NCBI RefSeq assembly: GCF_900100295.1
Contig: NZ_FNEV01000003.1
Span: 268,849-332,848, forward strand
Direction: 5' to 3'
Source of the DNA: Salimicrobium halophilum
Lineage (GTDB): Bacteria > Bacillota > Bacilli > Bacillales > Halobacillaceae
Length of the DNA: 64,000 bases
A program made the translations under genes and the position numbers. The notes beneath the pieces are model-generated. The model worked only from the letters and a program-made list of their open reading frames with translations. It did no database searches and was not told the origin of the DNA. Below, one piece after another: positions 28,586-50,215 of the stretch. How positions within the stretch are numbered: the first letter of the stretch is position 1; each line of letters starts with the position of its first letter.

Positions 28586-29719
28586 TTATTCGTCCTCCCC
28601 GATGACGCGGATGGTCGCTCCATCCGTAAGGGTGATCTGCCCGGAAGTGACGATCCGGTCTCCTTCGTCGAGATCCCCGGTGACCGCTGATTCTTCGGTT
28701 TGCGAAGCTTCGACAGATACCGGAACCTGGACGGCTGTATCTTCTTCGATTTTATAAACGTACGCTTCCTCTGATGTCTGCACGAGCGCTTCCGTAGGGA
28801 TAATTATCGTATTGTCCACGACGGTCTCGGGTAAAAGAAGCGTTGCCATCATCCCAGGCTTGATGACGTTATTCGGGTTCGGGATTTCCGCTTCCACGTC
28901 ATAGAGCCCCGTGTCTCCCGGTACGGACGACACATAGGTCACGGTCGCTTCGTTCGGGTTGGCGAGGACGTCCATGGCTGTGCGGTAGGATTCGTTTTCC
29001 TGAAAAAGGGGAAGCTGACCTGCCGGAATGGAAGCGGTGATGACAGCCGGATCCGTCGCAACGATGGTCATGAACGGCTGCTGGTTCGTTGCAATGTCCC
29101 CGACGTTTCCTTCAATAGAAGTAACGATCCCGCTTCGTGGTGCGGTAATCGTCTCCGGAGCGGCCTGGTCTTGTGCCTGTTCGAGCTGGATCTGCGCCTG
29201 TTCCACTTGCAGGCGTGCCTGCTCGACACTGGATTCTGCCTGATCGAGCTGCTGCTCGGCCTGGGAAACTTGCGCTTCGAGTTCCTGTTCGGATGGACCC
29301 AGGAACCCGTTCCCTGCTGATTCTTTCTGGTCGCGGGCATCATTCACTGCCTCCTGAGCCTCTTCACGGGAAGATTGGGCTTGAGAGAGTTGTTGACGGG
29401 CTTGTGCGAGAGCATTTTCCTGCAGTTCAACCTGGGACTCTCCCTGCTGAGGCGTGACTTCTGCCAGTGCGTCTCCCTCTGTGACGCGATCTCCTTTAGC
29501 TACGCTGATGAATGTGATTTCTCCCGGTGTTTCCGGTACTACAGCTGATGTGGCGGCAGGTGAGGATTGAGCGATGACTTCCCTATTGACGGTGAAGGTG
29601 CCTTCGCGTACGTCGGCTGTTTCGACCGGCGTAACTCGCTCGACTTCTTCTTCGGGCGTATCGTTCGAGCATGCGGCTAGTAGTAGGATAAAAAGGAATG
29701 CGAGTAGTGCTTTCTTCAT
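28586..29719 (-). CDS. Periplasmic-adaptor-type (HlyD/MFP) lipoprotein
   Basis: 377 residues with a lipoprotein signal peptide (LLLAAC lipobox, Cys 17). The split biotinyl-lipoyl domain is visible as VVPETPGEITFISVAKGDRV and ITAPRSGIVTSIEGNVGDI. Between them lies a coiled coil of about 95 residues rich in Gln, Glu and Ala (QVSQAEQQLDQAESSVEQA). Beta-barrel and membrane-proximal domains follow. It links an RND pump to the wall space. First gene of a two-gene operon with the pump. In front of it lies a five-unit 21-bp array. Confidence 0.9.
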   Translation of the reverse strand: MKKALLAFLFILLLAACSNDTPEEEVERVTPVETADVREGTFTVNREVIAQSSPAATSAVVPETPGEITFISVAKGDRVTEGDALAEVTPQQGESQVELQENALAQARQQLSQAQSSREEAQEAVNDARDQKESAGNGFLGPSEQELEAQVSQAEQQLDQAESSVEQARLQVEQAQIQLEQAQDQAAPETITAPRSGIVTSIEGNVGDIATNQQPFMTIVATDPAVITASIPAGQLPLFQENESYRTAMDVLANPNEATVTYVSSVPGDTGLYDVEAEIPNPNNVIKPGMMATLLLPETVVDNTIIIPTEALVQTSEEAYVYKIEEDTAVQVPVSVEASQTEESAVTGDLDEGDRIVTSGQITLTDGATIRVIGEDE

Positions 29720-29743
29720 AAGATCTTCCTCTCTTCGATGAAT

Positions 29744-29843
29744 GCGGACCCCTGGTCGGGAATTTGCGGACCTTGGCTTATGTTTTGCGGACCTATTGTC
29801 TGTTTATGAATCATTTGAGGACTTTTCCTCAGATTTTGCGGAC
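29744..29843 (-). repeat. Family III phased array (GTCCG type), copy B
   Basis: Five units of GGTCCGCAAA-like sequence are read on the minus strand. The CGGAC word starts at 29745, 29767, 29788, (29818, AGGAC) and 29839, spacings 22, 21, 30 and 21. Read in unit orientation the order is 21, 30, 21, 22, matching copy A at 41858-41957 including the single long second spacer. It lies between the adaptor gene promoter side and a terminator. Confidence 0.75.
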
Positions 29844-29850
29844 CATCGGC

Positions 29851-29881
29851 AGAAAAAAAGCTGCCGTTTCTTAACGACAGC
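29851..29881 (-). terminator. Terminator of the 205-residue protein gene
   Basis: GCTGTCGTT and AACGGCAGC pair around AAGA with seven T following, on the minus strand. Confidence 0.85.
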
Positions 29882-29891
29882 CTTATCCTTA

Positions 29892-30509
29892 TTATAGCGT
29901 CGAGCCCAGCTGTGATACAATCAGATCGATTTTCTTTTCCTCAAGGAGCTCATAGTCTCCGAAGCGCTGGTCGAAATGATCGAACACCGGCTTCAGCTCT
30001 TCCTTTTCGAGAAGGTTCTGATACGTCTCGTAGATATGACGATATTGATCGATATAGCGTTTCATTTTTTTATAAAAGCCGGACAAATGATACGTCGACG
30101 AGAAATCGAATGCTTTGAACACGGACGTCTCATAATGCGGAAACGCCGGATGAATTGCATGCAGCATCGCAGTCGCGACCGGAAACTGCAGCGTATGGTT
30201 CCCCTTATGGTTCGGAATCTCGAATAGTTCTTTCGTAATCCGGTAAATATTCGGGCGCTTCTCTTCCCGCGCGTTCTCCATCAGCTGAAAGTACGTCGCT
30301 TTGAACTCATCCGTCAGACTCGGATTCTCGAGACGGAAAAAGTTGCGGAATACAAACTGATAAAGCCCGTCCTCCGGCACATATGTAGCGTGGTACATAC
30401 GATGGGCGTACAGGTAGACCTCGATTTTCTCTTCCGGTATGTGATTGATCAGCTGCTCGTAATCGTCTAATATCCATGATGTCAATTCTTCTGACGTTCT
30501 ATATTTCAT
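29892..30509 (-). CDS. Conserved-looking hypothetical cytoplasmic protein
   Basis: 205 residues behind GTGAGG with a terminator immediately downstream, so it is a real single gene. No signal peptide or membrane segment. The sequence is rich in aromatic residues and His (YLYAHRMYHATYVPEDGLYQ; HAIHPAFPHYETSVFKAFDF) and predicted mostly helical. I do not recognise a family and see no catalytic motif. Base composition equals the core genome, so it is not obviously recent. Confidence 0.7.
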   Translation of the reverse strand: MKYRTSEELTSWILDDYEQLINHIPEEKIEVYLYAHRMYHATYVPEDGLYQFVFRNFFRLENPSLTDEFKATYFQLMENAREEKRPNIYRITKELFEIPNHKGNHTLQFPVATAMLHAIHPAFPHYETSVFKAFDFSSTYHLSGFYKKMKRYIDQYRHIYETYQNLLEKEELKPVFDHFDQRFGDYELLEEKKIDLIVSQLGSTL

Positions 30510-31139: not shown

Positions 31140-31712
31140 CTGGGGTTTCTGGACGTTCGCGCTCGATTTTCTGGCGTGAGTGGGTGGCTATGGCTTTTGC
31201 TGGACACTCGCGCTTGAGCTTCTGTCTTGAGTGTCCAGCTTCTTCTGTACCGCGCCGTTCACCTGTAGCCCCAGGGTGTGAGTGGGCGGCAAACGTATTT
31301 GCTGGACACTCAAACAGCATTCCACCTCCTGAACGGCGCACGTGTATAGTATGCTCTGGCCTTTGTTCTTTATCATGTTTGCACGACACTCACGCTTGAG
31401 CTTGTGATCTGAGCGTCCAGCTACTTCCGTACCGCGCCGTTCACCTGTAGCCCCAGGGTGTGAGTGGGCGGCAAACGTATTTGCTGGACACTCAAACAGC
31501 ATTCCACCTCCTGAACGGCGCACGTGTATAGTATGCTCTGGCCTTTGTTCTTTACCATGTTTGCACGACACTCACGCTTGAGCTTGTGATCTGAGCGTCC
31601 AGCTACTTTCGTACCGCGCCGTTCACCTGTAGCCCCAGGGTGTGAGTGGGTGGCTACAGCATTTGCTGGACACTCAAACAGAATTCCCCCTCCTGAACGG
31701 CGCCCATGTACA
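31140..31712 (-). repeat. Family I intergenic repeat, three near-identical tandem copies (182-bp period)
   Basis: The word CCGCGCCGTTCACC starts at 31250, 31432 and 31614, exactly 182 bases apart, and the copies are nearly identical. Each has an outer stem CGCCGTTCA ... TGAACGGCG around an inner hairpin GAGTGGGCGGCAAA ... TTTGCTGGACACTC. A second hairpin follows (GACACTCA ... TGAGCGTC). The CCTTCCCC hairpin seen in other clusters is missing. Confidence 0.9.
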
Positions 31713-32723: not shown

Positions 32724-32739
32724 TTTTGCGCGACGCTTA

Positions 32740-33052
32740 CGCCGGAGTTGCTGGCATGAGTGTCGCTCTTTTTTTAATACCGAGCCGTTCAACCGTTGCT
32801 TCAGGGTGTGAGTGGGTGGCAAACGCATATGCTGGACACTCAAAAAGGAGTCCCTCTTCTGAACGGCGTCCAAGTATATCATGCTCTGGTCTTTGATTCT
32901 TGCCATGTTTGCGCGACACTCACGCTTGAGCTTCTGACCTGAGTGTCCCACTTCTTTCCTACCGCGCCGTTCACCCGTCGAACCAGGGTGTGAGTGGGTG
33001 GCTACGGGATTTGCTGGACACTCAAGCAGCATCCCATACCCTGAACGGCGCC
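32740..33052 (-). repeat. Family I intergenic repeat, two tandem copies (182-bp period)
   Basis: CCGAGCCGTTC at 32780 and CCGCGCCGTTC at 32962 are 182 bases apart. The same stems as in the cluster at 31140-31712 are present, with GAGTGGGTGGCAAA and TGCTGGACACTC. Together with that cluster it brackets the NERD gene. Confidence 0.88.
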
Positions 33053-33064
33053 CAAAAGCATCCC

Positions 33065-41494: not shown

Positions 41495-41728
41495 CTAAAA
41501 TAGATAGATGAGACTATTGGACCACGACAGGAAATCCAGGAAAAATCTGCTTACCGTCGCTCCGAGGGCGATAGTAAGGAAGATCATAAGGATCCGTGCT
41601 TCGAACACTTTCCCTTTCCGGAACAAGCCGTCCAGGTTGAGCGCCTGGAGAGCATACCAGGTGATGACGATGAAAATGAGGTGTGAAGTCATACTCGTCA
41701 GGGCATCCTGAACAAAAAATTCTTCCAT
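41495..41728 (-). CDS. ywzB: DUF1146 membrane protein YwzB
   Basis: 77 residues with two transmembrane helices (about 14-30 and 47-65) and the family pattern WYALQALNLDGLFRKGKV and ARILMIFLTIALGATVSRFFLDFL. YwzB-type proteins lie between the atp operon and murA across Bacillaceae. Function unknown. It has its own promoter (41794-41821), separated from atpC by the atp terminator. Confidence 0.88.
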   Translation of the reverse strand: MEEFFVQDALTSMTSHLIFIVITWYALQALNLDGLFRKGKVFEARILMIFLTIALGATVSRFFLDFLSWSNSLIYLF

Positions 41729-41748: not shown

Positions 41749-41762
41749 ATTTCCCGGGAAAT
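41749..41762. promoter_or_regulatory. 14-bp perfect palindrome in the ywzB leader
   Basis: ATTTCCCGGGAAAT lies between the predicted ywzB promoter and its ribosome binding site. A related half (TTTCCCGAA) lies just upstream. It could be an operator or an RNA hairpin that limits translation. Confidence 0.45.
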
Positions 41763-41856: not shown

Positions 41857-41958
41857 GGTCCGAAAATATCAGCTCATTGTCCGCAAATGAAGCTGCAACA
41901 TGGCTTCAGGTCCGCAAATTTGAGCGTAACGTCCGTAAACTAGCAGCAAAGGTCCGCA
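41857..41958 (+). repeat. Family III phased array (GTCCG type), copy A
   Basis: GTCCG words start at 41858, 41879, 41910, 41931 and 41952, that is spacings 21, 31, 21 and 21. Each unit reads GGTCCGCAAA with seven to twelve variable bases after it. Copy B near 29.8 kb has the same number of units and the same single long second spacing. Confidence 0.8.
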
Positions 41959-41992
41959 CTTAGATTCCAACTTTTCTATTATATCATCCCAC

Positions 41993-42026: not shown

Positions 42027-42028
<2 letters not shown>
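41993..42028 (-). terminator. Terminator of the atp operon
   Basis: AAACTGCTTTCTC and GAGAGCAGTTT pair around TTCG with seven T after, on the minus strand, directly behind atpC. Confidence 0.92.
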
Positions 42029-42443
<415 letters not shown>

Positions 42444-49441: not shown

Positions 49442-49563
49442 TGCGTTACAAGTTAAAAGTACACATGTTCGACACAATTCTTTTCACATTTCTGCCACAT
49501 TTCCTGTTTGGTTATGCAAACGTTTGTATATTATGGAGTGGGAGCTTCCGTTTAGATACATTA

Positions 49564-50215
49564 CCTTCCCCCGACTTCCGGGGAAGGTACATGCATTCGA
49601 GTGCTTTTGCACGCCGTTCAGAAAAGTGAATCTCGTCTGAGCGTCCAGCAAATCTATTTGCCACCCACTCGCTCACGGACGACTTTCGTGAACGGCGTGC
49701 TATACATTTTCCTGGACACTCAAGATAGAGACCCTGGCGTGAGTGGGGGGCTACACGCAACAAGAGAAAGAAACGCAAGATCTTTATTGATTACCTTCCC
49801 CCGACTTCGGGGAAGGTACGTGCATTCGAGTGCTTTTGCACGCCGTTCAGAAAAGTGAATTTCGTCTGAGCGTCCAGCAAATCTATTTGCCACCCACTCG
49901 CTGACGGACGACTCACGTTAACGGCGCGCTATACATTTTCCTGGACACTCAAGATAGAGACCCTGGCGTGAGTGGGGGGCTACAAGCAACAAGAGAAAGA
50001 AACGCAAGATCTTTATTGATTACCTTCCCCCGACTTCTGGGGAAGGTACATGCATTCGAGTGCTTTTGCACGCCGTTCAGAAAAGTGAATCTCGTCTGAG
50101 CGTCCAGCAAATCCGTTTGCCACCCTCTCTCTGACGGACGACTCACGTTAACGGCGCGCTATACATTTTCCTGGACACTCAAGATAGAGACCCTGGCGTG
50201 AGTGGGGCGCTACAC
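49564..50215 (+). repeat. Family I intergenic repeat, three tandem copies (229-230-bp period)
   Basis: The CCTTCCCCCGACTT hairpin starts at 49564, 49794 and 50023. Each unit continues with GTACATGCATTCGAGTGC, then GCACGCCGTTCA. The inner hairpin GCGTCCAGCAAAT-CT-ATTTGCCACCCACTC follows, then TGAACGGCGTGC, then a tail hairpin (GGACACTCA ... GCGTGAGTGG) and a conserved 40-base spacer. Copies are over 95% alike by eye. They fill the gap between the atp promoter and a lipoprotein gene. Confidence 0.92.

Follow-up and report, generated by a model that had tools for sequence, protein, structure and literature searches.

Phased GTCCG word arrays behind terminators in Salimicrobium halophilum: candidate one-face protein-binding sites at the ends of transcription units

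Two short intergenic arrays built on the word GTCCG lie in the window, i.e., the whole 64,000-nucleotide stretch of Salimicrobium halophilum DNA analyzed here. Array 1 follows atpD-atpC and their terminator and precedes ywzB and murA, and array 2 is located between the terminator of a 205-aa open reading frame and the gene of an RND efflux adaptor. The features in window coordinates are:

41858..41960, + strand: array 1, five GTCCG words starting at 41858, 41879, 41910, 41931 and 41952 (spacings 21-31-21-21); genome copy C10:310704-310809, profile match E 6e-18
41879..41909, + strand: long unit of array 1 (31 bp), in which the inner motif GAAGCTGCAACATGGCTTC replaces the commoner TGTCGAA...TTGTCGAA
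41993..42028, - strand: terminator of the atp operon, a hairpin with T/A tails (inverted repeat I1), firing toward array 1
42027..42431, - strand: atpC (F1 ATP synthase epsilon; NF001846, E 1e-53), final gene ahead of array 1
41495..41728, - strand: ywzB/DUF1146 (TIGR02327, E 3e-20), first gene past array 1
29741..29843, - strand: array 2, five units starting at 29843, 29822, 29792, 29771 and 29749 (spacings 21-30-21-22); genome copy C10:298588-298693, profile match E 3e-16
within array 2, - strand: second unit, GTCCTCAAA, reading GTCCT instead of GTCCG
29857..29884, - strand: intrinsic terminator of the gene upstream, firing toward array 2
29892..30509, - strand: 205-aa open reading frame without family match, terminating ahead of array 2
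28586..29719, - strand: RND efflux adaptor gene (TIGR01730, E 3e-49), start codon ~20 bp past array 2

A first-pass annotation of the sequence had given the word positions and spacings of array 1 correctly. For array 2, its spacings and its five units also stand, with the exception that the second unit deviates from GTCCG. Five GTCCG within 100 bp did not occur in any of 300 block shuffles of the window sequence, and all five window copies of GTCCGCAAA (0.58 expected) are inside array 1 or 2. Tandem Repeats Finder detects neither array; inverted repeats are absent from array 2 and from the interior of array 1, and nothing resembling a promoter turned up around array 2. About 95 bp ahead of array 1, at 41749-41762, the window carries the exact palindrome ATTTCCCGGGAAAT, which matches the site bound by Noc, the nucleoid-occlusion protein. 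The same palindrome is also found directly ahead of another array (L049), and TTTCCCGGGAAAT adjoins an array in L141.

According to the first-pass annotation, the pattern would be coincidental if the genome held only these two arrays or if the words were randomly spaced. However, about 27 arrays are present, nearly all of them with five units spaced 21-31-21-21 or 21-21-31-21, so that this refutation fails. Chaining of words in a pattern search of the genome yielded about 21 arrays, and the sequence-only profile R1 recovers 27 full-length copies as well as fragments in 3.16 Mb (E 1e-9 to 1e-24). Among the 21 chained arrays, twelve are spaced exactly 21-31-21-21, three show 21-31-21 with a weak or absent last word, and two are off by 1 bp, the long interval being the second in each case; four are spaced 21-21-31-21. 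Six additional full copies fit the profile end to end with unchanged length. In an alignment of 20 arrays, the word (A)GGTCCG(C/T)AAAA(A/T)(T/C) carries up to ~2 bits per base, with ~2 bits over GTCC, while information is near 0 in most spacer columns and ~0 in the middle of the 21-bp spacers; ~12 bp lie between words. Identity between loci is 0.87 in the words and 0.30 in the spacers (0.26 expected), and spacer identity within arrays amounts to 0.29 (0.26 expected). The long unit is occupied as well, by TGTCGAA...TTGTCGAA in most copies and by a different sequence in a minority, including array 1. Since RNAalifold predicted 0 consensus pairs for the arrays and no Rfam family matched, a structured non-coding RNA was rejected. 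A module, AAAAGCGGAGACATCCCGCTTAGAAA, with a short inverted repeat is found directly ahead of only some arrays of this genome (L040, L047, L052-L055, L156, and L157).

The genomic position of the arrays is biased. A terminator-like hairpin fires toward 20 of the 27 arrays, compared to 36% of random intergenic placements (p = 5e-5), the right-hand gene, as seen on the GTCCG strand, points toward the array in 22 of 27 cases (p = 0.0015), and a single array of the 27 is located in a divergent gap, compared to 17 of 54 control gaps (p = 0.004), with terminators and ORFs called by simple scripts. Most arrays in genus g81 and in G010, a genome of another genus of the same family, likewise follow terminators; those of G010 do so in either orientation relative to the terminator. 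The intergenic site beside terminators, claimed early on for the two window arrays, is therefore shared by the genome arrays and by those of relatives, and mapping against gene ends places the arrays at gene ends behind terminators.

Exact-word searches of 40 relatives gave no match, and a search for the exact word in fixed geometry among 84,980 named species, a set from which the own genome may be absent, returned 21 scattered matches and no cluster recognizable as an element. Variant words were revealed by profile search only: three loci in the congener G001, and many in G010. The G010 arrays consist of eight units of GTCCGAA(A/T) with spacings 21-21-19-21-21-21-21, and profile R2 has 109 matches in this genome, some of which are parts of one array. 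R2 matched 56 genomes in 28 genera among 397 genomes of the order at E <= 1e-4, and only two among 398 genomes across the phylum at the differing threshold of E <= 1e-5. Sister arrays are thus found across the order, with a geometry fixed per lineage: in genus g15, arrays are (21)n-32-21 with a fixed closing 32-21, and 42/43 where a unit is missing; in genus g81, most have six units, all spaced 21. Further words at 21-bp steps include GTCAG (g5), GTCCA, GTCCC, TTCCGCA, and others. The spacings 21, 31/32, and 42/43 equal two, three, and four turns of B-DNA (multiples of ~10.5 bp) in independent lineages, the exception being the 19 of G010, so that the helical phasing noted for the window pair extends to the own genome and to relatives. 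Perfect or near-perfect tandem repeats of GTCCGAATCGCGCCAAACGAG are present in two congeners of G010 (G031:C33:63739-63869, L163; G062:C13:22060-22106, L165) and are possibly newborn arrays preceding spacer divergence. In G010 itself, the array copies at C2:127964 and C5:115223 (L142, L143) are near-identical including their flanks, and are a recent duplication of an array plus its surroundings.

Constraint on words and spacers can be compared directly in related copies. Nine duplicate-array pairs from G010 and from species of g81 show changes at 4 of 205 positions in the five-base GTCCG core, compared to 84 of 482 in the spacers (p = 5.5e-10); in four orthologous pairs among g81 species, whose flanks are 71-96% identical, the figures are 4 of 110 and 66 of 264 (p = 1.6e-7). 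Units were matched by coordinate, but the pairs were picked as recognizable arrays, which makes both p-values optimistic. Change rates are thus 2-4% in the word core and 17-25% in the spacers, and the orthologous pairs retain unit number and spacing. The pairs L249/L257 and L251/L256 have kept their units in register even though over one third of their spacer positions differ. The core resists change while the spacers vary, and selection therefore targets word and spacing. The early suggestion that selection acts on these rather than on the whole sequence is borne out by column information, duplicate pairs, orthologous loci, and word versus spacer identity alike.

The word itself can shift. 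In one species, G384, GTCCC is the predominant word at five of the six loci, and two of these five have GTCCG arrays as orthologs elsewhere; sister genomes have almost only GTCCG. This move from GTCCG to GTCCC is what a trans-acting factor that reads the word would lead one to expect: because the G384 spacers are locus-specific, simple copying explains the shift poorly, and a changed trans-acting reader explains it. Nevertheless, the word could have shifted through copying rather than through a changed protein.

On the strength of these sequence comparisons, we consider it fairly probable that the arrays are one-face protein-binding arrays marking the ends of transcription units. A putative sequence-specific DNA-binding protein would read GTCCGnAA, here GGTCCG(C/T)AAAAA, at sites that would all be on one face of the double helix. 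The sites would be read on double-stranded DNA, because there is no RNA fold, both orientations occur, and the phasing is DNA-like. The putative protein would probably assemble cooperatively in a fixed geometry, with five units over ~103 bp in this species, and the spacers would be informative by length alone. Placed just behind intrinsic terminators, such arrays might delimit or insulate transcription-unit ends, acting as a read-through roadblock or as a local nucleoid or supercoil boundary. Protein binding, cooperativity, and effect are the parts of this scheme that we infer, and for a word-binding protein the evidence is indirect, namely constraint and word shift; the proposal, first made for the window pair, that the words are protein sites on a single face of the DNA is supported by the data. 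Whether the effect is to halt read-through, to bound a loop or to absorb supercoils cannot be told from sequence. Against a polar roadblock argue the two orientations of G010 arrays relative to the terminator. A search of the literature on roadblock arrays found nothing relevant. The fixed 19-bp spacing of G010, which is out of helical phase, counts against the one-face reading as a whole, as do copy numbers of 0 to ~100 between congeners. Such swings imply that the arrays are dispensable and would suit selfish or neutral DNA equally well; their role may thus be selfish or dispensable. The most economical reading would still be that a protein assembles on one face at transcription-unit ends, in a geometry fixed per lineage. 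A bolder extension, for which we would not give even chances, is that the arrays represent an undescribed chromosomal nucleoprotein element, widespread among Bacillales-type bacteria, in which a one-face protein array of fixed geometry caps the ends of transcription units and the reader switches its word from species to species while dozens of sites follow.

Copy number also bears on the view that the arrays are neutral or selfish satellites, i.e., 21-bp repeats arising by slippage and spread by duplication, which gather in tolerant 3' intergenic DNA without host function and owe the word to copying or recent descent. The erratic copy number among species is what satellites would show, insertions are best tolerated at the 3' position, G031 and G062 have young arrays that are homogeneous, and tandem amplification of 82-bp blocks or of terminator-plus-array blocks is observed. 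However, neutral decay cannot retain words while spacers randomize in the same duplicates or orthologous loci, and loci with unrelated spacers have retained the number of units and the one odd spacing. Moreover, in viral contigs the 53 matches to 21-spaced GTCCG triples are for the most part homogeneous tandem repeats of the ordinary kind, with conserved spacers. We therefore regard satellites as unlikely. None of the 53 viral matches is a recognized array, and a phage origin was rejected on these grounds. Also rejected were a 12-kb transposon bounded by the inversely oriented window arrays, as the stretch holds the chromosomal genes murA and ywzB and other arrays are not so paired, and, judged by repeat length and distribution, a CRISPR array, which would have longer near-identical repeats, unique spacers, and adjoining cas genes, whereas the repeat here is ~9 bp at ~27 scattered loci.

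Helical phasing and the location at transcription-unit ends would also suit loading sites of DNA gyrase or another topoisomerase that ease supercoils at gene ends, similar to the BIMEs of E. coli but made of phased direct words. Gyrase wraps a length of DNA comparable to the array spans of 103-165 bp. Yet gyrase is conserved, while the word differs between genera and even inside one genus, and the array geometry is asymmetric and without palindrome, which makes such sites quite improbable. That the arrays act at the RNA level, as a transcribed small RNA or an RNA-protein scaffold, is one option raised by Subirana and Messeguer, and 52-nt repeats of B. coagulans do appear in RNA-seq (PMC8625621). 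Conserved structure is absent, however, the arrays are positioned behind the terminator and, in G010, face the incoming transcript in both orientations, and their spacing matches B-DNA (10.5) and not A-form RNA (~11); we give this option very little weight. Even less credit is due to ordinary operators of one transcription factor controlling an adjoining promoter. Array 2 would fit, with the start codon for the efflux adaptor only ~20 bp away, but arrays are nearly absent from divergent promoter regions, no promoter-like site was detected around array 2, and the two window arrays have unrelated neighbors (atp operon, ywzB, RND efflux).

Among known repeats, the REP/BIME elements of enterobacteria are dispersed extragenic repeats, often at 3' ends, which are protein-bound and form palindromic hairpins. 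The arrays are likewise dispersed and extragenic, but consist of direct words without pairing: 0 consensus pairs are predicted and there are no inverted repeats in the arrays. The STAR elements of Staphylococcus are also intergenic, with a short conserved motif, variable spacers, and no described function, but their 14-bp GC-rich motif, T(G/A/T)TGTTG(G/T)GGCCC(C/A), recurs with spacers of at least 40 bp and without two-turn phasing (PMC3532100), whereas the arrays have GTCCGCAAA and spacers of ~12 bp. Both families resemble the arrays only in outline.

A closer relation is found in the constant-size repeats of 20-21 and 52 nt with variable sequence and short species-specific signals that were described in Bacillus and other bacteria (Subirana and Messeguer, 2021; PMC8161180). 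The initial claim that no element of this form had been described is thus not tenable. In the main text of that paper, the two-turn length is remarked upon and a polymerizing protein or small RNAs are suggested, with no function described. The 20-21-nt repeats and the arrays have in common the period, a variable non-coding sequence, many arrays per genome, a species-specific short signal, and an erratic distribution, and a protein needing a constant repeat size was likewise proposed by those authors. Measured against the definition in that text, both window arrays have at least four repeats of mostly 20-21 nt (five units, three of four intervals 21 +/- 1), are intergenic and belong to ~27 arrays per genome, and share a short sequence, GTCCG(C/T)AAA, with 87% identity between loci. 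They deviate in tandem alignability within an array, as spacer identity is 0.29 vs. 0.26 and Tandem Repeats Finder returns nothing. As far as that text goes, the arrays are diverged members or a variant of the Subirana-Messeguer class, distinguished by unalignable spacers, which is why a standard repeat finder misses them, and by one odd spacing in a fixed geometry. Constraint on the word, retention at orthologous loci, location at gene ends, and the shift of the word are demonstrated here; neither these nor a fixed geometry of several units with a single odd spacing in phase were found in the main text of PMC8161180, so that priority on some points is provisional.

Repeats of 20-21 nt in bacilli have been described as enigmatic, with a constraint on repeat size and none on sequence. 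In the present arrays the parts are separate: word and helical phase are kept, the remainder is free, and one lineage has swapped the word at several loci. This separability makes the open question testable, with a short synthetic array as bait for a word-reading protein. If confirmed, the one-face reading would show how ~30 to 100 gene-end sites per genome are organized by one unnamed factor.

The 52-nt Bacillus repeats of Subirana and Messeguer resemble the arrays in that their size is constant and close to a whole number of helical turns, but have a 52-nt unit and inverted words and can be aligned over their entire length. In Table 1 of PMC8161180, the 52-nt consensus sequences of several Bacillus species contain TTCGGAC...GTCCGAA or TGTCC...GGACA, and one word may thus link the 52-nt and 21-nt repeat classes. 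The window itself holds tandem repeats of 182 and 229 bp (31196-31710, 32725-33055, and 49560-50215) with the inverted words GTGTCCAGCAAA / TTTGCTGGACACTC, a further class of intergenic repeats with a GTCC word.
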